64,000 bases of DNA from Monosporascus cannonballus (lineage: Eukaryota; Ascomycota; Sordariomycetes; Xylariales), in contig QJNS01000034.1 of NCBI GenBank assembly GCA_004154925.1, positions 62,001 to 126,000 on the forward strand, written 5' to 3'. Numbering within the stretch: the stretch's first letter is position 1; each line of letters begins with the position of its first letter. Below the pieces are notes generated by a model. That model worked only from the letters and a program-made list of their open reading frames with translations. It did no database searches and was not told the DNA's origin. The translations under genes were made by a program, and so were the position numbers. This document shows, in pieces, positions 1-49,508 of this stretch.

Positions 1-3000
1 TCGTCGTGGCGAGTGATAGAGAAACTGAGCCGCTCCAGGAGCCTGCACAGCCTTTCGTTGTGCGTATACAGTCGTTGGGTAAGACTCTTGGTGTGTTCGT
101 TACGACTCTCCAAGCGAGCGTCGAGACTTGCCGCCCGAGTCTCAGAGGAGTGTAGTTTTTCCTGGAACATTCGAACTTCTTCCTCAAGACTGCCTACCTG
201 GGACTGTCTTGATGCCAGCTGTTCCAATAGTTCTGCGACTCTCTTCTCTTCATCCTCCAGCTTCTTTCGTAAAGTCTCCGAGCCACTCTCGCCTTCGGTC
301 ATTTGGGCTCTCAGGCGGTCAATCTGCTCCCGCCCGTCCTTGACCTCTGCTTCCAAGGCGGCGCATCTGGCTTTCTCCTTGTCTAGTGACTCGCGCAGAT
401 GAACTGATGCCATCTCTTCTGCGGACAATCTCTCCTGTGTAGCCGACAGCTCGGACTTGACCTCCTTAACGGTCCCTTGGGCATGGTCGAGATCGGTCTT
501 CATGAGGGAAAGGTCTTCCTCGAGTGACTGGACCTTCGCTAGAATATCGGCCGACTTGTTCGCCAGTGACTCGATGAGGTCGGCTATCTCCTGGGGCACA
601 GCTTCTTTGGGCGACAACTGGCTGTGGAGCTCCTTGAGCGACTTGGTATGGGTCTCTGTGTTTTCTTCATATGTTTCTGCACGTCTTGATAGAGCCTTGA
701 TGGCCTCGCGGGCTTCCTGCAGTTGCCTCTCGAGGGACACGTTCCGTTCCCGCTGTGCGCGACTCTCGCTGCGGAGGAAGTCAAGCTGGCCCTGAGATTT
801 CAGTATATCGTCCCTCTTCTCCCGTGTCAGGCGTCCGACCTCCTCTTCCAGATAATGGACCTTCTCATCGTAGGCTAGCTTTTCGTTATCTCTGGATTCG
901 CCAAAATGCTCTATCTCTTCCTCGGTCTCCTCGAGGCGCATCTTCAAAGCCTTGATCTCGGTCTCAAGCGACTTGCGTTCCTCTAAGAATTCCCTCTTCA
1001 AGGCCTCCATGTTGCCCAGGAGGTCATTCTTAGTTGAGTTGACTTCTTGCATGTCCGTCGTTCGGGCCTGGGCCTCCCTCTCGAGAGCCGTAGCGCGTTC
1101 TCTTTCCGCATTGAGGTCGCCTTCTAGTTTCGCGATACGGTCCAAAAGAGCCCCACTACTGTCTGAAGCGGACGATCGTCGCCGGCCGTCACTCGGCTGG
1201 TCCGCCTTGACCGAGGCAGTGTAATCGTTCCTGTCCGCTGATTGCCGCTGTGGTTGGAACAATGACGGTCTTGATGCCTGACTATGTCGATGCAAGAGAT
1301 CTTCGAGTCGGCGGACTCTGCTTTCGGCAGTCCTTAGCTTGTTCTCCAGCTTGGATTTGTCTTCCTGCAGGCTTCGAAGGAGCTCATCGTCTCCTCGGAT
1401 GAGCAGGCCACTCCTACCTAGCACCGCTTCATGGACACTGCCGTTCTTGAAGGCCTTCACCCGTTTCGACTGCTGCTTGGTCGGGTTATTAAGCTCGTCA
1501 ATCAGCTTTGAGACGTCATCCACAACTGAAGGTTCTGCGTTGTGTCGTTGAATGACGGCCAAGAACTCATTGAGATCTTGCCTCGCCATGGCCGGCCACG
1601 CCTCCTCTTCCCCGAGGATGTTCACTTCGACGCCCAGTACATTGTTATCTGCCTTTTCGGGTCCGTATGTGCTACCAACCATTTTATGCCATTTGCGTCT
1701 GCGTTTCAACTCCTCATCCTGGAAAAGCGCCATCTCGTTGACAAGCGTTGACGAGTCTGACTTGACCTTGTCCGCCCATTCCCTACGCCTTACAGCTTCT
1801 GCCACGAAGGATGCGTACATAAACGGGAGCTGCTGTATGAGGCGCAGATAGTCGAACGTAGTCATCTCCTCCTCGCCTTGGGTGATGGCATTCATCTGAT
1901 TCTTCACGTTCGCGTGCAAACTTGTTATCTCGGCGATATTGCGCATGAAAACCAGAGAATCGCGAGCCACGTCATTGCGTGCCTGGGTCGCGTAACGAAC
2001 CATAGCCTCCATCTCAAGAGCCCGATTATGCATGCTAGGTAGGAGTTGCTTGGTATGGTTGACGGCCGTCTTGGAAGCTTGTGGGACGTCTCTTGCCGGA
2101 TTGACATATAGAAGCGTAGCCTGGTAATCCGTATCAATCTTCTTCGCCACAGCCTCGATATCCTCCAACAGCCGGCGGCACTCATCGGCATGGTGCAAAG
2201 CTGATCGAGCCATGAGCTTGTCAAACTCCTGAAACAGCTGGTCACATTCGGCAAACATCCTCTCGGCCGTCTTGTCGAGGTCGGATATCTTGTTGTTAAA
2301 CTTTCGCAGAGACGTAGTGGCGAGCTTGCCAGCCTTCCGCGTCGTCTCTGGATCGATAAGGTCCTCCAGTGTTTTCTGACGAGACTTCCGCACCTCCTGA
2401 CAGGTCATGAAGCGGACCATGTCCGGGGATATACCGATGCTCCGAGCCGACTCTAGATAACGCTCCCAGTTGGTGGCTAGGTTGGTGTAGTCTTCCTGCG
2501 TGGGAACAATCCATTTCTTCAACTCGTTATATTTGGGCTCCAGAGGCTTCAACGCGGTGTCGAGATTGGCCACGGCAGCATCGAGGCACCTGAGCATGAC
2601 ATCCATTTCATCGTAGCGTGCGTGCGCAGTGTTGGCCATGGCGGTACAGTCGTTTACGATGTTCGACGCCCAGTCGCGACGACTCTTGAACAGAGCCTGC
2701 CATGATTGCAAAGACCGTGAATCGTTAATAGCGTTAGGCGCAGCAGTTAGGACATATCGCCTCGGAATGGGGCCCTCGGACACAAGGGATGTAGGGGTCC
2801 CCGGCGACGAGGCTTGCGTTATTCGGATATCGTAGACGTATATCTCCTTCTATAGCCCGCATTAGCCAAAGACTTCAGGGTGCTGTAGGGTAGAGGGAGG
2901 AAGGTGCGCTGACTTCCGACTGGATGGTTTGGATCTTTACGGTTTTCCCTTGTGAGGTAAGAGCAACGATACTCGGTATCGGTATAGAGCTTTGTCGGGA

Positions 3001-3177
3001 GACCCATCCCTTGAAGTCATCGAGGCTACAGTTGCGATGTCAGTCTGTGTTACACTAAATCTCGACTCCGCAGCGAGTCGTTGCGAGCCGAGTCAGTACG
3101 TACGACGAGAACTGCGAGATGTCGACCTGCAGGCGCTGGCCCGTGTGGGCTACCAACACCTGCGTCTGCGTCGCCAT
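1..3177 (-). CDS. ATG11: Autophagy-related protein 11 (selective autophagy scaffold), N-terminal and central part, runs off window
   Basis: Atg11 is the scaffold that ties cargo receptors to the autophagy initiation machinery at the vacuole or phagophore assembly site. Exons on the minus strand are 3104-3177, 2914-3025 and 2849-1, with introns 3026-3103 (donor GTACGT, acceptor CTGTAG) and 2850-2913 (GTCAGC..TATAG). The start ATG at 3177 begins MATQTQVLVAHTGQRLQVDI, the ubiquitin-like N-terminus usual for fungal Atg11, and exon 2 to 3 joins as TIQSE/KEIYVYDIRIT. The third exon stays open for about 950 codons to base 1. It carries the conserved RRRKWHKMVG block and then long heptad coiled coils rich in Glu, Lys and Leu, ending in ERLCRLLERLSFSITR at the window edge. 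The C-terminal Atg11 domain lies outside. It is divergent from the CENP-H-like gene at 4105. Family assignment is strong; splice sites are inferred from frame and consensus. Confidence 0.93.
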
Positions 3178-4104
3178 TATTCATGTATTCCATCACCTAA
3201 TGACAGCATACGGGGCGGAGCCGAGACAGGAACGGACGTCGGAATGTAAGTATGTTCAAACGAAGAGCCGGTAACTGGGGAATACCAATGTATGGGTGCG
3301 TGGTGTGTGTAAGATAAGAAGATGACCTGGCAGACTGGAATATTGCGGTGATGATAAAGCACGGGAAGCGACTACTAGGATCAGCTCCCCTAGATAGCAG
3401 ATGGCAGATAGCTCTATAGGGTCAGGGTATCGGAGGTTACCAGAGCAATAAGCCCGACAGTAGTCATCATCACGAGGCGGTCTCGATTCTAGAACAAGAA
3501 TTGAGAGATGGGCTCCCAACGGCGCCCCGTCGTCCCACGGCACCGATCACCAATCACAGACGAGGCAGAGCTTAGACCAGTCGACTATGTGGATGTGCAA
3601 GCGGTTTCGAATGTCTTGGGTTTGCGGGTATCCCGGTACAATCGAGGATGACGTCGGCTCGTGATCAAGCGGTTGTCACGTACTCGAATTACATAGTGCT
3701 ATCACAAGTAATCATGAAAGGTAGTGAAAGGGCTGATGAGGGATTCTTATTTAAAGAGCCCATGTAATTAAGAGAAATAAGAGAGGCGAGGATAGGATCA
3801 AGGTTCCAAAGCTTGTTCGGAGTTTAGGTATAAGAACGAACTTTGTTCCAGCGCGCGGTACCTAATGGTTGTTGATTACAACAAACATCCGAATAGCGCC
3901 ACCGCATCAGCCACTTTGTTTTCTGATGCCCAGCCACATCTCCCATTAGCCCCGTATGCAAACCGTTTCCGTACCCGACCGCGTTAGATATGAGTGGCAA
4001 TCTGGATAAAAGGAGACAGTTATTATATTGCATAATTCTATTATATATCTCTGAAGGTCCAAAGTTATTCATTTATTGTTCAGTGTCAATCAAGAAACGG
4101 GGCC
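3178..4104. promoter_or_regulatory. Divergent intergenic region between ATG11 and CENP-H-like gene
   Basis: This 927-bp spacer separates two divergently transcribed genes, so both promoters should lie here. I see no coding potential, no repeats and no RNA gene. The stretch around 3740-3840 is A+T-rich. No specific operator can be named from sequence alone. Confidence 0.4.
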
Positions 4105-4979
4105 ATGGCACAAGAAGCCAAGGAAAGCCCAACGGCGCTGTTGCTACTATCAGACGAGGAAAAGCGCGTCTTAGAGCTACATGACAGGCTCCAGCAGCTC
4201 CAGTTAGAAATCGCCCTGTTAACAGCACAAAGGAACTACGTTCCAAGTATAGGTCACCGGTTTACCTTAGCCCTAGAACATCGTGGCTAACGAAACACAG
4301 GCACCACAACATCATCATCGCAAGAGGGAGATGCAATAAAGGTAGCACAGAAAGAGCTCCTGGACTCCCGCGCTCGATACGTTCTACGGAACGAGGCCGT
4401 GGAGAGCGTCATGATGGCGAATCCGATCATGCAGGCCGTGCACAGCGGGACCAACGCCTCTCCCATCGAAAGGTCAGTTAACCAGGGTCCTTACGTCCTC
4501 CCTTCCCCATCCCCGTTTCTAAACCTAGATGCAAGTACGAGAAGTGAGATTCGCCAAACAAGACAGCTGGCTAACAGAATGACAGGGACCTCCTGCCCGC
4601 GCTCGAGCAGCGCGACGCGGCCTCCGTGACGCTAGCCAAGCAATCGACGGAGCTCCGGGCGCTGCTCGACGAGCTGGTCGAGGTCGAGGGCCAGAGCCTG
4701 CGGCTGATGCGCGAGAACGCGGACCTGGCAGCCGAGGTGCTGCGGTTGGCGGGGGAGGCAAACCGCCGGAATAACGGGACGGGGGAGCCGTGGGCGGACG
4801 CGGACCCGGATCTCGCGGCCGAGATCGACGAGCTCGGGGTGCAGGTCCGGGCGAGCCGGAAGCGGTGGCGCGTCGTCAAGGGGACGGCGAGCGCCGTCGT
4901 CGCGGGCAGCGGCGCCGACTGGGCCCGCGACGCCGAGCTTAGGGATATCGTCCTCGACGCGGAGGACGACGACATATAA
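4105..4979 (+). CDS. CENP-H-like inner kinetochore protein
   Basis: Likely the fungal CENP-H homologue (Fta3/Mcm16 type) of the constitutive centromere-associated network. Three exons, 4105-4246, 4301-4472 and 4586-4979, give 235 residues. Introns are GTATAG..ACACAG and GTCAGT..GACAG, the second with a GCTAAC branch site. The N-terminus has LLLLSDEEKRVLELHDRL followed by a heptad segment, the middle is helical with MMANPIMQAVHSG, and a second long coiled coil precedes the C-terminal WRVVKGTASAVVAGSG and DWARDAELRDIVLD blocks, which are typical of the family as I know it. The acidic tail is EDDD. The last exon is markedly more GC-rich than the first two. All frames and phases fit, so the gene looks intact. 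It could be another coiled-coil kinetochore subunit; CENP-H is the best match from memory of the C-terminal block. Confidence 0.75.
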
Positions 4980-7900
4980 TCGGTAGCTGGCGTGAGCGAG
5001 AGCTTGGGGCTCCGAAAGGAGGCTGTTGGATTGTTTCTATGCTTGTGATACCCTATCCCTTCTTGCACTCATGAATACATACACCTGTGCAACCAATGGC
5101 GTGGCCAGCCAGTTCACTCAGCTGACTGGATGGATCTGTCTAAGAGGATATACGTGCGCAAGCTCCTTTCTCTTAGCAGGGGATAAAACCATCGACTGCC
5201 TCTTTCTTCCACAGGGCAGCATAGTACTCACCACGGAGCGAGCCGTTATTAGCTGCCGCAACCCACCGCCCTGTCAGAATTCAGGATCGGGGTCCATTTC
5301 AAGAGTAGCCAGTTCTCGGCCCTTGAACAGCCACACACCAAGAGATCGACGCAAGTCATTCGGTATTTCACACTGTAAGAACCAAAATCGCAAATACCAA
5401 CATCATGGAGCGACCCGGCACCCACGAAAGCTTGTTTCGTCGACGCAGACGCATTCAAACGATCCAAACGCTAGCAAATAGGGCTTAGCGCACCCCAAGG
5501 TTGGCGACTGTGCCGTCGGCTCCTACGAAGCACGTGATATGCATGCTATTTTTATTTAGCCTTGGAGCTGTTTAGGATCATCTAGGTTGGGAAGGCAAGG
5601 GCCAGCGGGGATCCGGAAAAGTTGGATCAACCACGTTGCCTGGGCCTTTAGCTCTACGTACCTTGGTAATCAATATTGCGAGATGGCTGATATAATCATC
5701 CGCGAATGGAATCAGATTATGGCGAAGATGCAGGGCTTTGCCTCCATCTTCCCATTTGGTATCGCCTTTTACGTGTGATGTAAACATAGGTGCCAGTGGT
5801 TAGTAGCGCATCGATATCACAGCCAAGCCAAGCCCTGTGTCTTGAATGTGTAATTGCTCTGACGAACATGATTGATGAGTGCAGTTGTAGGATTTTCCCA
5901 ACGGACTGTAGTCATGGTGGAGAAACGGGCCTCCTGGATGATCCGAAAGAGGGATGGGAGCACAGTGCGGGATTACGGTCCAGTGAAACAACCAAGTCGC
6001 TTTCTCTCGGTGGACGGTATGCGGTACAGTGAAGCCCCCCGACTCCCGGTAAATCCGTCCCAACGTTGCCCCTACGACCAAAACAGGTGCCCACATAAGG
6101 AAGCCGTAGGCATGACTGCGAAACATCTCGTGCCCTATCCATTGCAGATTCTTTGGGCGAATGAGACACTTCGACGGATTTTCGTGTGCATTACCACAAC
6201 TACGGAATCTGACAGGTCTCGAGGACACTTACCAAGCACCGCAGTGATCCTGCACGTAATTGCGCAAGCTGGTTCCTATTGCAATTATACTTGCGACGTT
6301 GCTACGCGTGTTATTAGTGGATATGCACAACCCATGTCGGTCTCAAGCCTTGTACCCTTTGGTTGCGGAGCAGCTGCTGAACGGAACAGGTAAACATGAG
6401 CGAGCATTTGCCACAACAGATACGGGGGTGGCAGTTGTGACCAGAAGTGTGTGTGGTATGCTCCCACACTCGTTGGCCTTGTCACGCCGTATGTTTTGTT
6501 AGCTGGTTCCTAATATTGTATATTTATAGCCTGGTCAACACCTGGTTGGGAGCATCGAGTATTCCAAAAAGCGCACGCCACTATTATCCTCAGTGGCAAG
6601 ATGGCCCCTTCAATAACAGTCTCTCCTTATGGGAAAGACCAGGGCATGCATAGTCGACTGGTTGGGGGGACGTTGCGTCGGCGCAACAAACAGATATCTA
6701 CAACTGCGCGATTTCGAAAACGTTATTGGTTTAACGAGTCCTTGGCATGATATTTGCCTATAGAAGGTTCATTTAGGGTCTGAGTTCCATCCGGTCAATG
6801 CCAATATCAGTTGGCGCTGGGGTGTAGACGGGCGATATTTATCAAGAGCTAGAGCCAATCTCATGATTGGCTAGTTATGCTTATTCAAGGACAGCGACGA
6901 GGCTAGCAATAAACATTTGGCGAGAGGTAGAATGTACTGGGATGAGCTTCTAGGGGATCGCAAGCCTAGATCATCAATGATGCATCAGAGAAGCGTAAGA
7001 TTTCACTTGTATTGTCCAGGCCAGTATATTTGCATGCCAGCGTTTCCCTTCGAGTCGAAAGAGCTGGTTATCTGCTTTGGTGCATTAGGTTTGCTTGAGA
7101 GAAAAGAAAGGGGTTGATGGTCTGCATATGACCGAAGCAAAGCACTATGTGACTCAAGTCAGAAAGGGATGGGTGATAGATAGCCTGATGGGTGAGTTGG
7201 GAGGAAACAGGGGAGCTTGGGTGAAACAGTAGGAGGGGGAGGACCGGACTCGCAGCAAAATCGACCAGGATGAAATCAGCTGTCAACCACTTCGTACTAG
7301 GCACTTTCTTCCTTGGATCACAGCCCAACAACACACGATAGTACTGATAAACGAGTGCGTGCTCAAACAAGGTACCTAGAGTGAAGTACTAATCCGATGA
7401 CGCAAATGATAGGTAGGTAGGAGATCTGAAGAGCCAAAACACCTCAGCTATGCTACCCGCAGATAGGCTTGCGTTGCCCCCAAATGCTGCCAGCTGGGCA
7501 ATGTTTCAAAGGTCAACCTCTGTCTTTAAGATGCCTAGGAAAACATCGAATTCGTGGCAAAGAGACCAGCTGTAAATTACTGGCATTTTCAATCCCTATT
7601 CGGTATCTGCAAAGGAATGGGAGTGGTACATAACCCTTTTGCGTCGCTCAGAGAACCATATACGAGGTTAAGAGGAAGGCAAATGGGACTTTTGAAGCTC
7701 AGATATGTACCTAGATACGTAAGCAATCTGATTCTCAAAGCAAAAGTCAGAGTGATGATCCAAATGAATCAATACGTGATTACGGAGTACGGCGTAAAGG
7801 TGGGAGCCAATGCGGGAAGAGGGAGTACACAGTATCCTGGCGACGCTGCACTTTACGCGTCAGTACAGGGAATCAGTCAGATAGTACCGGATTCTTAGTA

Positions 7901-25100: not shown

Positions 25101-28100
25101 TCAAGGACTCCGGCGAGGGATCCGTCAAGGTGTATGAACCCAAGCTTGGTACGGTGCTCTCCAAGGCTGTTAGGGTGGCATTCCCAGTCCTTGACCCAAC
25201 CTCGAGTACCCACATACCGGGATATTGATGCACCAGTTGACCTACGAGTGGGCGGAGTCGACTTCTAACCTCGACAAAACCTAGCCCTTCCCTATATAGT
25301 CTGCTAATCATATCATGATCCATGACAGCTTGAGCAGTTGGAGTTGCCCTTGAGACCCTTGAGATGATATTGTCGGCCCCCTGCAAATCAGCTGCAGATC
25401 AATATGGTCATGGTAATTTTCTTCCCAAGCCATCATCATTTTGAGAATGTCGCTTTTCCACTGATTATTCGCTACGGTGTGATGGCCCGACTCCATCTTT
25501 CCGGTCATCTCCAGAGCCCAGTTGATAAGGGACTGCACATATTGTTTCAGAGGTTCGGTTGCAGGCCTTTGAATTTTGCACTGTTGTTGCAGGTAGAAAT
25601 ATGAGGCCTGAGCGCACATTTCACGTAGAGCATCCTCCATAGACGAATCTTCGAGGGCATCGTCTGCCTCAATACCGGACCCCATGTCCTTGTTCCTCAA
25701 GGTGCGAGCGAACAACAAACGATCATTTGTAGCGCTTGGGTTTTCGAAAGAAGAGTAAACGACACCCTGTGCTTGCATTTCGGGATGGTTATCTTCGGCG
25801 CAGAACATGTCGAGATCACCGTGAGTAGTCCTGGCAGTGGTCCCTGTAAGGTGACAGTCAATCACTAGTCCGGATTCTTCGCACGCCACGATCCGAGGGC
25901 AAGTTGCCATGTTGATCCGGACTTTCCTGATGCTCGTTGGCAGGTAGATCGACCTCAATCTCCCATCGCCTGGGAAGGCGAAAGCCGAGTAGAAACCCTG
26001 AAAGGCCGCGTCCAATGTGGCAGGATAGGGTCGATATTGCTTATGCGCCTTCCGCCTTATAGCAACGGTAGAGACATTCAGACCTCTTTTCATCGAATCG
26101 ACCAGGAAATCGCCCGAGTAATCAAGCCCGCACGTCATCAGCCACATGTAGAAGCGGTCGAGGCCGATGTCTGTCATTGGTAGCTCCGGGAACCCTCCTG
26201 GGAGCCAGAGCATCCGGCGTCAGGTCCCCCAGCGTCGCGACCACCCGCCTGGTGAAGATGGTCCTCTCGAACTCCGAAGAACCGGCCTCCACTTCACCAG
26301 AATAACATCAATATTGAGCTATGACTTGGTCGGAATCAGTTTCGAGTAGTCTGATGACAAAAACGATCTCGACCCCTGAGGATCTGTCTTCCAGGGCGAT
26401 TACGTTATGGACGGTAAGATCTTGTAGGTCCAGGAGATTCAGGGGCTGGTCCTGAACAAGTTGCAGCGCGCCATTCATCGCTCCTAAAAACATAGCCTGC
26501 TTCCGGGAATAAAACTTGACCTTGGAATTGGTGCCTTTGGAGCCATTCCATCTCGCTGAGCTTGATGATATTGTGCCAACGGACCTCCTCGCCGTTCATG
26601 GGCGTTAACTTGCCAAGAAGCTCGTCAACAGGCCGACTCTGTGTGCGCCATATCTTCGACCTCCTAGACCCTTTGAACAGCGGCCTGTCGTCGGTCCCAA
26701 CAGTATGGAGGGAGCCCTTCTGCACCTGGGGCTTCCGCGAAGTACATCCATTGCAGGCAGTTTGGAAGCTGTCGAAGTCAACAACCGGAATGGGTGACTG
26801 GATGTTCTTCCATACAAAGCCGAGAGCGTCCGAATACGCGTTCACGTCGTCATCATTCCTTTTTAATACGCCGTGGTAAGGGATATCGACTCCTGTTAAT
26901 ACCTTCAACGTTTCCGTCGCAGGCCCTTTCAGAACCGGGTATGGCCCTACTTCGAGGACGATATCGAAACAATTCTCTTCTTGCGCCGCACGGCTGAGCG
27001 CCTGGGAAAACATGCTCCTTCCGTTGAGCACGTGTACGCTGGGGTAACAGTTACAGTCACTTTCGACGTTGGTTCTTCGCGGTTCGATATCGCACTGGCG
27101 CAGTGATTCTAGATAAGCTCGGGAGCTTGGTTCCAGGTGGTGGGAGTGGTACGCCTTATTGATCGCCAGCACCCTTGCAAATGTCTTTTCAGCGTCCAGG
27201 AACGCCTTTGCTTCATCGATGGCATCGGTATCACCAGAGAGCGTGATACTCGACTGCGAATTGCTCGCGGTTACCTTTACCCTCCCCAGGAATTTCTCAC
27301 GGGCACATAATCTCTTGGCCTCTGCTAACGTCATCCCTACGGCCATCATCTTTCCCGATTGACCGTTCGCAGCTTTGGAGAGATGCGAGTACGGTCCGCG
27401 ATGATACGCGACTCGTATTGCATCCTTCACCGTGAAGTAGCCCGCGGCGTACGCTGCGGCAATCTCGCCAGACGAATGGCCAACGACGGCGTTGAAGGTT
27501 ATGCCCGAAGCCCTCAGAAGGTCCACTAGAGCAGTCTGAAACGCAGTCGTTAGGGGCTGTGAAATCTCAGCGCACTGGATTCTGGCGGGGTCTGTTGAAG
27601 TCGTCATCTCTTTGGCAAGGGTCCAAGAGGGGCCGTCAGGGATGCTCCCGAGTGATTCATCTAGATGGTGGATCGATTCCCTGAAACGCAAAGAGCACGC
27701 AAAGAGCTTTGAGCCCACTGCCATCCCTAAGGCTAGCATTTGTTCTTTTTGCGCGATGGATATACCAACTTAATGACCACTGCGCTCCTTGTCCCGTGAA
27801 AACTCCAAGGGAGCGTGCTGGATATGCCTTCGATACCCGTGCTGGTCGCGTGGACAACGAGTACTGAGGGTCGTTCCTAGACATTTCAACGGAGTCACGG
27901 AGCTTCTTCGTAGGCTGGGCACTATTTGACGCTGAGGGGGCGGCCTTATATTGGAAGGGGTCTGACGAGCTTACAAAGCCCACGACGAGTCCTCCAGCAA
28001 AATACTCGGATCGGCTTCGAGCGCCTTGGGATAACGCAGCTACGGTACCCGGGGAGAGCACAAGATGACTTGGCAGACAGCAAAATAGGTCCAGGGACCA

Positions 28101-38711: not shown

Positions 38712-41700
38712 TTATTCCCTTTTTTCCAGGATCTTTGTCCCCAAAGATAAAAAAAGTAAGTCCTTAACTTCTTTTTTTTTTGCGTTATAGCATTATATTT
38801 AACTATATCGGATAGATTTCGAAAACGCATTAAATTTTCCATTGAAAGTTATTACGAATTAATTAAGTCGATTTTTTAGTTTGGTTTCGAAGTTATGCCG
38901 TATATACGTTATTTCGAGAAAAAGCTTTTTTGCAAAATGTTAAAAGGTTAAAGGAACTGTTAGAATTATTTGGCGGCTAATATTTAATTTTGCGATAAGA
39001 ATTATATTTCGCTTTTATTGCTTAAAAATATCCGAACCGAAAAGTTCCGGATAAATTAAAAAAAACGTTTAATTATTTAACAGCTTTAAGAATTATTTAA
39101 TTGTATTATTCGGTTAAATCGTTAATTTGAATGGTTATATTTTAAAAAGGTATTATTTATTTAAAGGGGGCTTAAAAATATGGATAAATTGGAAAAATAA
39201 GAAAAATTGGATACGGAAAAGGATCGTAAAGAAAAAAAGCAAACATAATTTGCTTCAAAGTTAAATACGTTAATGGAGGTATTTATTTTTTTTTGATTAG
39301 AACGCCGTAAGGGTTGATTTAAATGGGGGACCGTTATTGCCTGCGACCTTGGCCGCATTAAAAATGGTCGGTTAGGATTTTGGCGGTAAAACGTTTTAAT
39401 TAGGTTTATCGTATTCGTTAAGTGGTTAAATGGTTTTTACGTATTTTCTTTATGTAAATATCTTTTTTATTTAATTAGGTATTGGATTTTTTTTTGATTA
39501 TTCTGGAGTCCAGTATTTGTTTAACTTCGTATTCGTCAAAGTTTTTTTCGAATTTTAGGTTTGTTTTTAACGGGGTATTCTTAGGTATTAATTTAAGTAA
39601 AGAAATATGGAAAATAGGATATATCTTTATGTTTTTGGGTAATAACAATTTGTAATTAGTTTTGGAAATAATTTCGTCAATTTTGAACTGTTTAAGCTTT
39701 TTAAAATTAAATTTGTCGTTAGGTTTTTTTGTTTTGATTTGTAAAATATTTGAAGTTGCGTTTTGTTTTTGGCGTAATAGGTAAATTTTATTTTTTTTCG
39801 TTAAAATTAATCCCTTAATTCTTTTTTTATTATAATACTGGGTTACCCATCGTTAAAGGAATCGTAATTTATTTTAAAAATAGGCCTAGATCGTTTTGAT
39901 TTTTATAGTTAATATTTTTGCTTTTAAAGTAATTATAATAATTTTTGGTACTTTGTTAAACGGTTATTTAGGTCGTTTTATTTTTATATTATATCCGTAT
40001 ATAGCTGTATAAAGGGATATGCCTATATTTTCATTAATTAATATATTGTAAACGATTTGTATTAATGGTAAAAATTTTACCCAATTATTTTATTAATAAT
40101 TAACGTAATTTCGCAAATATTGTTTTAAGGTTTGGTTTAATTTTTCGGTTTAGTTATCCGTTTAAGGATAATACGTTATTAAGAACTTAAATTTAATACC
40201 AATTTATTTAAAAAAAATTAATACCGAATTTTAAAGTAAATAACGTATTTCGGTTTAAAACGATTTTTTTAAATATCTTATATTTGTTAAGGTATTATTT
40301 AATAAAGACGTAGGCCAATTATTTTGTCGTTATATTTCCTTTAAAAGGTAAAAAGTATTTATATTTAATAAATTTGTTAATAATTATTTATATTCTGTCA
40401 TATTCGACTTTAATAATTAGGTCTTTAAATAAAAATAAGTTAATAATAAAATCCCGAGTTATGGTATTCTATGCTTTATTAGGAATGTCGGTAAGTTATA
40501 AAAGCCCGTAAAGCTTATGGCGTATTACTTTAGCTTTATTATAAACGTTACAATTCTTAATAATTATTTTAACCATACGGCGTAATTTAAGGAAATTATA
40601 TTTTTTTTGTAGCTGTCGGGTGGTTTTAAAGATTCTTTGGTATTTATATAATAGGTCCTTATGGAATTCCTTTACGAATTATTTTTGTTAATTTTTAGGA
40701 ATATAGATTTTATTATAATACAATAATTAATTTTTGGGTTGTCCTTTTAGCTGCTGGATTTCCTTTTGTTTTTTTTTATATCGTAAAAATTCCGGAACCG
40801 TATTAAAAGTTTAGTAATTAATTTTTTCATTATTTCATACAAATATATAGTTCTATCTTTATTATATTGTAATATTTATATATTTTTTTGGAATTTTGAA
40901 ATCGTAATCTCCTTTACGATTAAAAATATCTATTTGGATATTTTCCTTTCTTTTGATATGATGTATTTTAAAGTTAAATCTGGATAAAAAAATCCATTAT
41001 TTTTTATGTCGTTTATTTAGTTTTTGGGCTGTTATAAATTACGTAAGATTTTTATAATTAAAGTAAATATCGAAAGATTCTTTTATTCCGTTAAGGAAAA
41101 GTTTTTATTCCTTAAAAGCATTAATAATTACTAATAACTTTTTGTCGTAAATCTAATATTTAAATTTTGTATTTCGGAATGCTTTAAAATAATATACCAC
41201 TAAGTATTATTTGCCGTTACTTTTTTACTATTCCAAAATTGCGCTTAAGATATATTTTGAAATATCTGTTTTTAGTTGTTTCGTTTTATCTAGATTTGGC
41301 ATCCTTACGATAAGTCCGTTAGTAATTGTTTTTTTTAATTCCCGGAACGCTTTTTTTACTTTTTTTAAAAGTTCGAATTTTTTCTTAACGTATTCCTTAA
41401 TAGTAAATTTCGTTAAAGGCCTAATTATATTTTTATATCCCTTAATTAGGCCGCGTACGTAATCCGTAAATTTTAAAATCTGCTGGATATTTATAACGGT
41501 CGCCTTATTAGGGATAAGCCAGTCCTTAATTGTTTTTATCTTAAAGCGTTAAATCTGAATTTGGCCGGGGGTAAAAGTATATCCCAGAAAATCTAGTTTT
41601 TACGTATGCCATATGCTTTTAACTGGGTTAATTCGGATATTTGCTTTATTTAAAATCTTAAGTATTTGGGCAACGTATTTTTTATATTTTTCCAGAATCT

Positions 41701-46046: not shown

Positions 46047-46066
46047 TAATATTACAGCCGTGGTGT
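46047..46066 (+). other. Left half of predicted origin and insertion junction
   Basis: TAATATTAC (46047-46055) overlaps the stem arm CAGCCGTGGTGT (46055-46066). TAATATT up to 46053 belongs to the interrupted retrotransposon; A46054 is the first base of the insertion. Confidence 0.75.
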
Positions 46067-46203
46067 TTTGATGTCTTACTAGGGTATGCACCAATCGGAT
46101 ATCTGGGATTCCGGTTTTGTTTTGGTGTCTTACCAATGGGAAGCGTAGGACTTTTTAGCGCTGGTGTCCGTATATTGGGTATCAGCTCTTCCGGCGCTAA
46201 TGG

Positions 46204-46294
46204 ATGCGCCAAGGCTCGTATTTAAATCTAGCTTGCTTTTTCGGGTTTGGCCTTTTTTGGCTTAATCTTAACATATGCGCCAAGTCTCGTATTT
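46204..46294 (+). repeat. Iteron-like direct repeat beside the predicted origin
   Basis: ATGCGCCAAGGCTCGTATTT at 46204-46223 and ATGCGCCAAGTCTCGTATTT at 46275-46294 match at 19 of 20 positions. They lie between the origin and the virion-sense gene, where CRESS viruses carry Rep-binding iterons. A second pair, TTTTGATGTCTTAC and TTTTGGTGTCTTAC, lies at about 46067-46080 and 46125-46138. Confidence 0.6.
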
Positions 46295-46402
46295 TTGCGC
46301 ATAAGTACTATTTACTTTATTTATAAATTCTTTTTTTTTCTGTTTACTCAATTTTTGCTTTTCTTTATTCATTAAATCTTTTTTCGAACTTTTTTTAATA
46401 TT

Positions 46403-47758
46403 ATGTTCGGTTATTGTCGTCCGTATTATCCTTATCGTCGCTATTGCCGCTATCGTCCTAAGTTTTATCCTAATTGTCGGTACGGTATTATTCGTTACTT
46501 TGGATACGTACGTCGTTACTAACGTTTTCTGGTTAATTCATTTACTTATTTTCCGCGTTAATATATTGCTGGTTATAAGGTTTGGGGTTTTGACTGTACT
46601 AAAAGGCCTTTACCTTATCGTCGCCGTATCCCTAAAGATAATTAATTTATTTTTTCGAAATTATTTTTTCCTCCCTTTGCGTTTCGTATTCGTAAGTTAA
46701 ATGGGGAACGTTTTGAAAATTTTATTTTATGGTATTTTTTTTCGGATTAGTTTTATGATAATTATCCTTTTTAGCCGTATTACGATTTTTTTATTATTAT
46801 GTTTAAAGGTTTTTTAGGCGGTTATTGCCGGCATTTCGATTATCTGCGCGTATTTTATCGGTTTACGCGGGTTATGCGAAAAATTACTTTTATTAATTAT
46901 TACGTTAAAAAATTTATGGAATAATTTAATAAGATTCGGTACCCGCTTATTATTTATACGGGTAATTCGGATTTTGTTTTTTTTTTGGTTTTTGGTAATA
47001 AGGTTTATTGGTCCGATAATCGGATTATGCGAATTATTATTATTAACGGCGTTTGGTTGGATTTCAATATTATTGCATCGCGCAATTATATTATGCGCGT
47101 TTTAATTATTCAGGCTTATAATAATCCAGGTAATAATATTTTTGTTTTTAGGTTTTCTATTTGTTAACGTTTATTTAATGCTATTAGGCGTTTTTTTGGT
47201 CCTATTAGGGTTACCGATATTTACGTATTTAAGTTTTTATTTAGCGATAATATTATTTTGAAATATATAAAACCTAAAGCCTTTATTTATTGGCTTATTT
47301 GGCGTAACGTTAAAAAACGCGTTTTCGTTAATAAGATTTATAATAAACGTTTTATTTATGGGGTTAATAGTTTAAAAAATCGACTTTTTAATATTTATAT
47401 TCGAATATTACGGAAATTGGAATTTAGGAATAATGTTAATAGTTTTTTGCATATTATTAAGGATATTTAGGTTAATTTCAATATTTATTTCCTTATTATG
47501 GTTTATGTTTCCGCTTTTTTTGTTAAACGTATTTCTCGGTTATCCGATTTATTTTTAATAAATATTAATTTTAAGGATAAAGGTAAATTATTAACGCATA
47601 AGCGTTTGGGCTCCTAATTTCGGGTTCTTTTTCGGCCTGATATTTTATTAAATAAATAATCGGGTTAATCGAAGGTTTTTATTATTATTTTGAATCGTAT
47701 TACAAAATATGCGTTATCCGTAATAAAATTTGAAAATATTTGGGCTATATTTTATTAA
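46403..47758 (+). pseudogene. Virion-sense gene of the CRESS-like element, Arg/Tyr-rich start (possible capsid-like protein), degenerate
   Basis: A single frame of about 450 codons stays open except for TAA/TAG stops. The N-terminus, MFGYCRPYYPYRRYCRYRPK, is extremely rich in Arg, Tyr and Pro, then more conventional sequence follows, such as KKFME, NKIRYPLIIYTGNSDFVFF and YWSDNRIMRIIIINGVWLDF. A basic N-terminus on the virion-sense gene opposite Rep is the usual position and character of capsid proteins in CRESS viruses; this is inference by position and composition, since I recognise no fold. Alternatively it is a protein specific to a mobile element. It lies on the strand that carries TAATATTAC, as expected for the virion-sense gene. 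Confidence 0.5.
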
Positions 47759-48457
47759 AAAAAAATTAAATATTTAATATTAATAATTATCGTCGTTTTT
47801 TATATTTTTTAAAAATAAATTTAATACCTTTATTTTATTATCTGGTATTTTTGTTTTTTTTTATTTTTACCAGCAAAAGGTTTTATATTTTTATAAAAAT
47901 GTAATTTTTTTATTTATTTTATATCCATTTTTATATATAATCTTAGGTTTTCGTTAGTTAAATATATACATAATAGGCCTTAATTAAGAAAGTATATTTT
48001 CCGTACGTATTTGTCCGTAACGGAAAATTTTTATTAATAGCTGAATATTTATTTGTAATATTTTAGCATTTATTTATCGTATAAGGGTATATTATTTATT
48101 ATTATATATTAATTAAATAAAAATAATATAAAAATAATATTTTATTTTTTTGTTATATAAATATAAGGTCTTAATAAACATATTTATGTTATTTTATATG
48201 TACGTATCTTTTTATATAAATATAACGATTTCGGACGTATTATTTTTCCGTTAATTTTAAAGTTTACCTAGTTTACGTTATTATTTTAGGCCCCTGCCAG
48301 GGAGGGCCGTTTGCGGCCACCTTTGGTTATCGTTCCGTTACTGGCGTTCCTAAGGAGGTCCTTTTTCCCTCTTTCCGGTAAACCTTAGCGAACTTTTAGG
48401 AGGGGGGGCATTTAAGGGGGGGTTAGCCCCCAGAAATAGGGAAGAGGTAATTTTTAA
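47759..48457. other. Convergent intergenic region of the CRESS-like element with a GC-rich hairpin island
   Basis: Between the ends of the two opposed genes. From about 48289 to 48450 the sequence is suddenly GC-rich, with possible hairpins such as GGCCGTTTGCGGCC and a G-run/C-run pair around ggggggttagccccc. It could be a bidirectional terminator or a small intergenic region of the virus, or a remnant of the Rep C-terminus; I cannot decide. Confidence 0.45.
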
Positions 48458-49315
48458 TCAAAATCCTAACTTACGTAAAAGGTTTTTCAAAATTTTTTTA
48501 ATCTAATCGGAAATTTCTTTTAGTAGGTCCTATATTCCTTTAAATTTAGGTGGAATATATGTTAATACCGGGGGTTTGAAATGGTCGTCCATATAAAAAC
48601 GTACGTTGCCGTAATTAAATATTTGCTCCTTAAATACATCCGATTTAAAGCAAAAAACAAATTCCTTTCGGTTAATAATTATCGTCGCTATTAACCAAAA
48701 ATCTTTTTTGATTTTTTTTTTTAAAAATTTCGGTTCCGTTATGTCGCCGCCAATATAAATTAAACGTTTTTTATTTTTATAGAAATAACGTTAAGCCGTT
48801 AACTTATTACGTATTTTAACGATATTTAGGTAAAAACTTTTAATATTAAAATAACGGGAGTTTTTTTAGGTTTTTTTTTGTACTTACTTTTTGATTACGT
48901 AAAAGTATAAAGTGCCGTTTTTGTATTTTTCGCGGACTGCGTAATATTGTTAAAAATTAAATTTGTTAATTTCCGCGATAAACTTTTGTAAATCCAGGTG
49001 GTATTTCGGGTATGTCAAAAAGATAAATTTTGCCGTTAATCTAAATCGGCCCGTATTGTCGATAAGTAGGTCCTTTAAAATTAATTTTAGGGAGCTTTTT
49101 CGTATATTTGGTATGGTTTATGCGGTACTGGCAACTTTTGTTTCGAAGTCGAAAAAGTTAATTAGTTATCTTTTAAAAAGCTAATTATTTATAGCCGTTT
49201 TTAATATATCTGAGATAATAAAATCAAGAAGTGATTTTAAGTTATTAGGTATTAATATCTGGGTCGGTATTGCTGCCTGGAATAATTGGCTTAGTAATAT
49301 GATTTGTAATGCCAT
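48458..49315 (-). pseudogene. Rep-like rolling-circle replication initiator (HUH endonuclease family), degenerate
   Basis: A single frame of 286 codons from ATG at 49315 to TGA at 48458, with nine internal stops. Motif I is visible as FLTYP at 49007-49021 after FRLTAKFI. The place of motif II (48899-48907) reads Tyr-Phe-Tyr, so the metal-binding His pair is not present. The motif III region reads RYFYK at 48776-48790, keeping the Tyr-x2-Lys spacing with its catalytic Tyr, followed by IYIGGDITEP. The product family nicks the origin nonanucleotide and starts rolling-circle replication in the nucleus. No helicase domain with a Walker A motif is recognisable downstream; it may be lost or too mutated. 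In its present state the gene cannot be functional. Confidence 0.78.
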
Positions 49316-49479
49316 TTTGTAAATATGGAATTAATATCTATATTTATCTTATTATGTAATGTAAAATATTAGAATTTTTGGTATCTTTATATACTTCATT
49401 TGTATTTATTATTTATTAGTTCGTTTCTTTATGTTTGTTTTACGTTATGTGTATTGGTTTTTGTCACTTGGAATAAGGG

Positions 49480-49508
49480 ACACCACGGCTGAAAACTTTT
49501 AATATTAC
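49480..49508 (+). other. Right half of predicted rolling-circle origin: stem arm, loop and nonanucleotide
   Basis: ACACCACGGCTG (49480-49491) is followed by AAAACTTT and TAATATTAC (49500-49508). The predicted nick is after 49506. The matching arm is at 46055-46066. Confidence 0.75.

Follow-up and report, generated by a model that had tools for sequence, protein, structure and literature searches.

A multi-copy element with a predicted geminivirus-type Rep and origin-motif borders in the genome of Monosporascus cannonballus

Integrated sequences of single-stranded DNA viruses in eukaryotes are mostly regarded as accidental fossils, and geminivirus-like elements of fungi and plants are already in print (PMC3198968, PMC5014472, PMC7758297). 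The 64,000-nucleotide stretch of the Monosporascus cannonballus contig QJNS01000034.1 analysed here (the window) contains a unit of 3,453 bp that the original prediction described as a whole viral or virus-derived circle, captured in a fungal chromosome. How did this unit come to lie there, and does it represent one captured genome or something that moves?

Borders and surroundings of the unit

The predicted unit-length insertion is real and its coordinates are exact, with TAATATTAC and the arms of a stem-loop at both borders (Table 1). A perfect 12-bp inverted repeat, CAGCCGTGGTGT and ACACCACGGCTG, lies just within the two TAATATTAC borders and is offset, because eight extra bases, AAAACTTT, separate its right arm from the 9-mer. 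Circularising the ends gives a stem-loop origin as in CRESS-DNA genomes, with a stem of 12 bp and a loop of about 16 nt made up of AAAACTTT and the nonanucleotide. Geminivirus Reps cleave between TAATATT and AC, in origins whose stem measures 9-11 bp and whose loop has 10-13 nt; the loop of the element is somewhat larger (PMC7826260). The 9-mer by itself is not unusual for the composition of the window (three occurrences vs 1.71 expected, a number reached in 22 of 100 shuffles); its position at the borders is what counts. Iterons are found near the origin in Geminiviridae and Genomoviridae, and the element has iteron-like repeats there: GGTGT[CT] was counted three times for the window (mean of 0.31 after shuffling; three or more in 0.3% of 2000 shuffles) and one to four times per copy in 20 copies, many of which also carry it at element position 16. 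By eye, a near-direct repeat, TGCGCCAAG.CTCGTATTT, occurs twice at 46204-46300, in the leader that separates the origin from the plus-strand gene.

Table 1. Coordinates of the features in the window
Feature	Position	Strand	Basis or remark
RNase H-like pol stretch of host retrotransposon	41231..41548	-	RT_RNaseH_2, E 4e-6
TAATATTAC, left junction	46047..46055	+	sequence
Whole unit, between the cleavage points	46054..49506	.	3,453 bp; cleavage position from PMC7826260
Left arm of 12-bp origin stem, CAGCCGTGGTGT	46055..46066	+	
Iteron-like GGTGT[CT]	46062..46168	+	at 46062, 46124, 46163 (element positions 8, 70, 109)
Plus-strand (virion-sense) capsid-like gene	46403..47755	+	one phase, internal stops, R/Y-rich start
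Probable Rep exon 2, helicase-like motif remains	47783..48267	-	motifs, codon bias
Putative intron, G+C-rich	48268..48474	-	GTAAGT resembling a donor, 48474-48469; acceptor tentative
Rep exon 1, HUH endonuclease domain	48475..49315	-	one phase, motifs; P0001 matches 48698-49048
Right arm of 12-bp origin stem, ACACCACGGCTG	49480..49491	+	
TAATATTAC, right junction	49500..49508	+	sequence

As originally predicted, the element sits inside a fungal retrotransposon, of Gypsy type judging from RNase H-like matches: the match in the window, at 27.2 bits, falls short of the cut-off of 29.8, and the sister copy L045 matches RT_RNaseH above the cut-off (5.1e-10). Element and flanks show RIP-like dinucleotide indices, with TpA/ApT at 1.12 vs 0.78 in the gene half of the window and (CpA+TpG)/(ApC+GpT) at 0.62 vs 1.15. 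The border between these compartments is sharp: G+C is about 0.5 in positions 1-35500 and mostly 0.2-0.3 in the RIP-like positions 36000-64000. A 444-aa open reading frame at 26405-27739(-) resembles, by eye, the acyltransferase part of a polyketide synthase.

The two opposed genes

The minus-strand frame runs in a single phase from 49315 to about 48475 and contains FLTYP, YFYV, RYFYK and GGDITEP, with seven stops within the part checked (49315-48533). A direct Pfam scan of ten mutated Rep pieces gave sub-threshold matches only (Gemini_AL1, 0.1; Gemini_AL1_M, 0.061), next to unrelated families at 0.018-0.2, and a Rep profile found nothing meaningful in the PDB. A profile built from eleven stop-free Rep pieces retrieved one natural open protein, P0001 (153 aa, on a 643-bp contig), with an E value of 1.1e-14. 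It was the sole protein at E <= 10 among 2790 candidates drawn from 5.77 billion proteins, and the candidates were limited to 0.55-1.75 times the query length, a range that excluded full-length Reps. P0001 matches Gemini_AL1 above the cut-off (5.6e-12), as well as six solved chains named Rep or replication-associated protein (6.2e-8 to 2.9e-5), which we take to be geminivirus Reps; the other 14 rows of its structure list look like chance, most of them being cytochrome oxidase with values no better than 0.02. In the host assembly, the best match of P0001 is the copy C5 (4.3e-35); it matches the window element at 5.6e-28, with 117 residues aligned at 46% identity. A repeat protein search with P0001 as the query returned only P0001 itself, and a PF00799 search of the host assembly gave no match, which carries little weight because 14 controls were equally silent. 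By way of P0001, then, the homology identifies the minus-strand gene as a geminivirus-type (Gemini_AL1) HUH Rep, in agreement with the original prediction. A Helitron has a two-tyrosine Rep fused to a Pif1-type helicase, unlike the Gemini_AL1-type Rep of this element.

Behind exon 1 lies a G+C-rich block that we read as a putative intron, with acceptor and frame not reconciled. It is present in the window and in ten other copies (one partial) and absent from 11 further copies whose right-hand loci were searched, some of which are interrupted there. The following minus-strand stretch, from 48267 to about 47783, holds RPKSLYLY and CIYLTNEN in one frame, the window being apparently frame-shifted near the end of the stretch; in other copies the same frame yields pieces such as FSVTDKYVRK and CIYLMNEN. 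RPKSLYLY and CIYLTNEN are presumably remains of the SF3 helicase motifs A and C. Codon-position bias in this exon is 9/5/18 (p 0.015; significant in one of four pairs tested), a Pfam scan of it gave no match, and a Tyr occupies the expected Gly position of the supposed Walker A loop. Motifs, position and codon bias suggest that Rep probably has a helicase exon, without profile support, and that the earlier statement that no helicase domain is visible was probably wrong.

The plus-strand frame extends in a single phase from the ATG at 46403 to about 47755. It has an Arg/Tyr-rich start and is interrupted by 12 in-frame stops. Its pieces, which are short and mutated, match nothing in the PDB, Pfam or IMG/VR, and a protein database search returned none of 1011 candidates at E <= 10 (candidates of 82-260 aa only). 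Two structure models, with pLDDT values of 52 and 38, were too poor for use. We call this gene capsid-like from its position, its R/Y-rich start and the codon selection described below. Profile searches of both frames thus recovered the Rep, through P0001, and no capsid; the capture of a complete unit stands, and that of a whole virus, with no detectable capsid homologue, is unproven.

Differences between copies were counted as transversions, which RIP does not create. Transversion columns at codon positions 1/2/3 number 75/59/131 in the plus-strand gene (p 8.5e-8) and 11/15/36 in Rep exon 1 (p 1.6e-4; the HUH part alone, 6/11/16, is not significant at p 0.1), with the non-coding leader as a comparison (11/15/13, p 0.74); the copies are related, so these p values are indicative. 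In pairs with the window, the plus-strand gene gives 51/35/86 (C21), 47/33/92 (C90) and 48/42/86 (C445). The pairs C21 vs C90 (20/27/30) and C21 vs C445 (25/34/39) are not significant, nor are three of the four pairs for Rep exon 1. The pattern shows coding constraint on both genes prior to decay. The ambisense plan that had been proposed is borne out, since two opposed one-phase frames surround the origin, each with codon constraint, and divergent transcription is predicted. In its Rep catalytic domain type, ambisense plan and origin motif the element resembles Geminiviridae and Genomoviridae; it differs from them in its chromosomal location and in a plus-strand gene without a detectable homologue. 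Genomoviruses are also shorter than this unit.

Copies, junctions and exchange between copies

The original prediction had proposed looking for further copies in the same genome. The left 347 bp of the element gave 35 matches at 34 places in the same assembly and the right 634 bp gave 29 matches; both ends are present at no fewer than 28 loci, which makes this a family and not one capture. A 25-mer from the right end (up to three mismatches) occurs 24 times vs none for the reversed control, and a 17-mer from the left end (up to two mismatches) 35 times, 15 of them exact, vs 14 for its control. The ends are spaced about 3.1-3.6 kb apart in 19 of the two-ended loci and 5-24 kb apart in nine. A longer parent element was considered for the wide-spaced copies and dropped: at five of the nine loci (C1, C2, C108, C571 and C38), the 3.45-kb unit is split by inserts of about 7 kb, at five different points.

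C112, C5, C95, C91 and C30 lie within about 0.03 transversions of the window element in every region, and C606 is a more divergent relative. C254 and C100:87974 are clearly similar to the element at the origin end only. The corresponding loci, L076 (C254:16000-20200) and L077 (C100:87700-91900), share the TAATATTACAGCCGTGG end and have a largely unrelated interior, L076 with a different R/Y-rich start (MSGFRRNYY); they may be other or decayed members of the family, or non-autonomous forms. A search for head-to-tail junctions with up to three mismatches found none (mutated ones could escape it), and viral contigs of IMG/VR contained no relative when scanned with Rep, plus-strand-gene and origin queries.

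Junctions were read at the 20 best-scoring of the 34 left ends and the 20 best-scoring of the 29 right ends, the window being counted in each. On the left, 13 of 20 carry an exact TAATATTAC, five differ at one base (in three of them the final C has become T), one differs at two bases, and in L019 the 9-mer is 1 nt off; on the right, 18 are exact, one has one mismatch and one has two. Beyond the 9-mers, the flanking DNA is unlike among most copies, and the opening point of the circle is identical in nearly all of these ends. C445, C68 and C108 deviate in the left 9-mer only, at position 5 or 6, and in the decayed copies C571 and C45 it is the right 9-mer that differs, at position 1 or 2. This asymmetry fits a nick-and-join reaction without proving it, and later mutation may also account for it.

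An empty version of the retrotransposon site, with a single TAATATTAC, is present in L045, and a degraded form in L047. L045 (C108, about 940-7790) is itself a retrotransposon of the window's host family, nested within another copy of the element and retaining the empty TAATATTAC site. One retrotransposon site is occupied three times, by the copies in the window, C91 and C245. Between the window and C91, transversions per site are 0.003-0.018 in the element, depending on the region, and 0.036-0.045 in the flanks. Because the elements are closer than their flanks, two separate insertions are the simplest explanation; apparently these elements were inserted after their hosts had diverged, with gene conversion as the alternative. 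C245 (element 0.025-0.085, flanks 0.023-0.048) is uninformative on separate insertion. All this suggests that the element integrates at its own origin motif, a target that the original prediction did not name.

The copy C21 is a mosaic relative to the window. From the left end there are no transversions in the first 200 nt, followed by 2, 5 and 1 per 100; from 46555 to 47854 there are 8-21 per 100 in all 13 windows, then 7 and 6; from 48055 to 49154 there are 0-3 in 11 windows, then 6, 2, 4 and 0 up to the origin. The plus-strand gene was therefore swapped between genomes with a common origin and most of Rep in common.

How the unit may have been integrated

We lean, with modest confidence, towards the view that the window holds a RIP-mutated copy from a CRESS-DNA family of geminivirus or genomovirus type, which Rep integrated from extrachromosomal virus-like circles. 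Circular forms would once have been present outside the chromosome. Rep would have opened the origin of the circle between TAATATT and AC, cleaved an identical 9-mer in host DNA that was single-stranded, and then joined circle and target. One complete unit would thereby have been inserted, flanked by hybrid 9-mers: TAATATT of the target and AC of the element on the left, TAATATT of the element and AC of the target on the right. The copies would afterwards have been inactivated by RIP. Nicking and joining by Rep would account for a constant opening point, for the target motif and for the single 9-mer per side, with no transposase needed. The Rep homology, the junctions, the empty site in L045, the distances between window and C91, the coding constraint and the C21 mosaic speak for integration of circles by Rep, enough to make it somewhat the better bet. 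Against it, IMG/VR scans yielded no exogenous relative, the plus-strand gene has no homologue and the helicase no profile support. P0001 is, besides, the single outside relative of the Rep (in a length-limited search), the loop is larger, and the joining step is inferred.

The element may instead be a virus-derived transposon with equal TAATATTAC targeting, copied Helitron-like from chromosomal copies without virions, its plus-strand gene serving in another role. In HUH transposons, among them Helitrons and replitrons, an HUH nuclease probably cuts and pastes single strands at fixed ends; nuclease, helicase type and insertion site differ from those of the element. High copy number, the low-divergence group of C112, C5, C95, C91 and C30, and the IMG/VR scans without a relative agree with such a transposon, as does the Rep-mediated spread proposed for yam elements (PMC5014472). 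The plus-strand gene is coding-constrained and exchanged as a module, as virus genomes would show, and we regard a purely chromosomal transposon as possible and on the doubtful side.

We think it improbable that this is an ordinary terminal-inverted-repeat (DDE) transposon that acquired a rep gene and makes an 8-9 bp target duplication, TAATATTA(C). The 12-bp inverted repeat and the duplicated motif of 8-9 bp would suit it; the repeat, however, is offset by the eight bases AAAACTTT, the duplicated motif is the geminivirus cleavage site, and the 9-mers of C445, C68 and C108 are unequal at position 5 or 6, which later mutation could explain. An unrelated transposase, which would have spoken against the original prediction, did not appear: none was found among 38 pieces scanned against Pfam (eight of them other pieces or flank), nor did those pieces yield a DDE transposase for the element or any relative. 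Passive capture of viral DNA at breaks, with later spread by the host retrotransposon, would account for the shared retrotransposon family and site of the window, C91 and C245 copies, and is very unlikely given an opening point and target motif constant in nearly all ends read, mostly unrelated flanks, and elements in the window and C91 that are more alike than their flanks. Spread only with the retrotransposon was dropped for this pair on the same distances.

The nearest published case in a fungus is the geminivirus-like transposon of Tuber melanosporum, a multi-copy element whose reported Rep genes and their remnants number 42 (Liu et al. 2011, PMC3198968). Both are multi-copy fungal elements with a geminivirus-like Rep gene; the inverted repeats of the Tuber element measure 37 bp, and it carries two transposase ORFs and shows no obvious duplication of its target, unlike the present one with its 12-bp repeat and no transposase in the pieces scanned, and the accessible part of that paper mentions neither TAATATTAC nor a capsid-like gene (PMC3198968). 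Endogenous geminiviral sequences of plants are integrated genomes or parts of them with a stem-loop and TAATATTAC, partial and tandem in the case of the yam repeats (PMC5014472); in contrast to the present element, insertion at a genomic TAATATTAC is not reported in the available portions of these accounts (PMC5014472, PMC7758297). Among titles and abstract openings of the open-licence literature, we found no report of origin-targeted integration of a unit at a genomic TAATATTAC.

The borders, the empty site and the reuse of one site speak for a defined insertion, directed by Rep, at the element's own origin motif. On balance we favour a fungal CRESS-DNA lineage in which Rep would act as the site-specific integrase of a whole circle at genomic copies of the origin nonanucleotide. 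Such a lineage would, at a similar level of confidence, be a temperate-like single-stranded DNA virus or an intermediate between virus and transposon, and selection would have maintained its capsid-like gene. The constraint on the plus-strand gene and its exchange are in favour of a virus, the number of copies and the low-divergence group in favour of intragenomic spread, and, as far as the sequences go, both can be true. If integration by Rep is correct, replication and integration would be combined in one enzyme, CRESS viruses would be bridged to HUH transposons, and the old idea of Rep-driven transposition would become testable with oligonucleotides.
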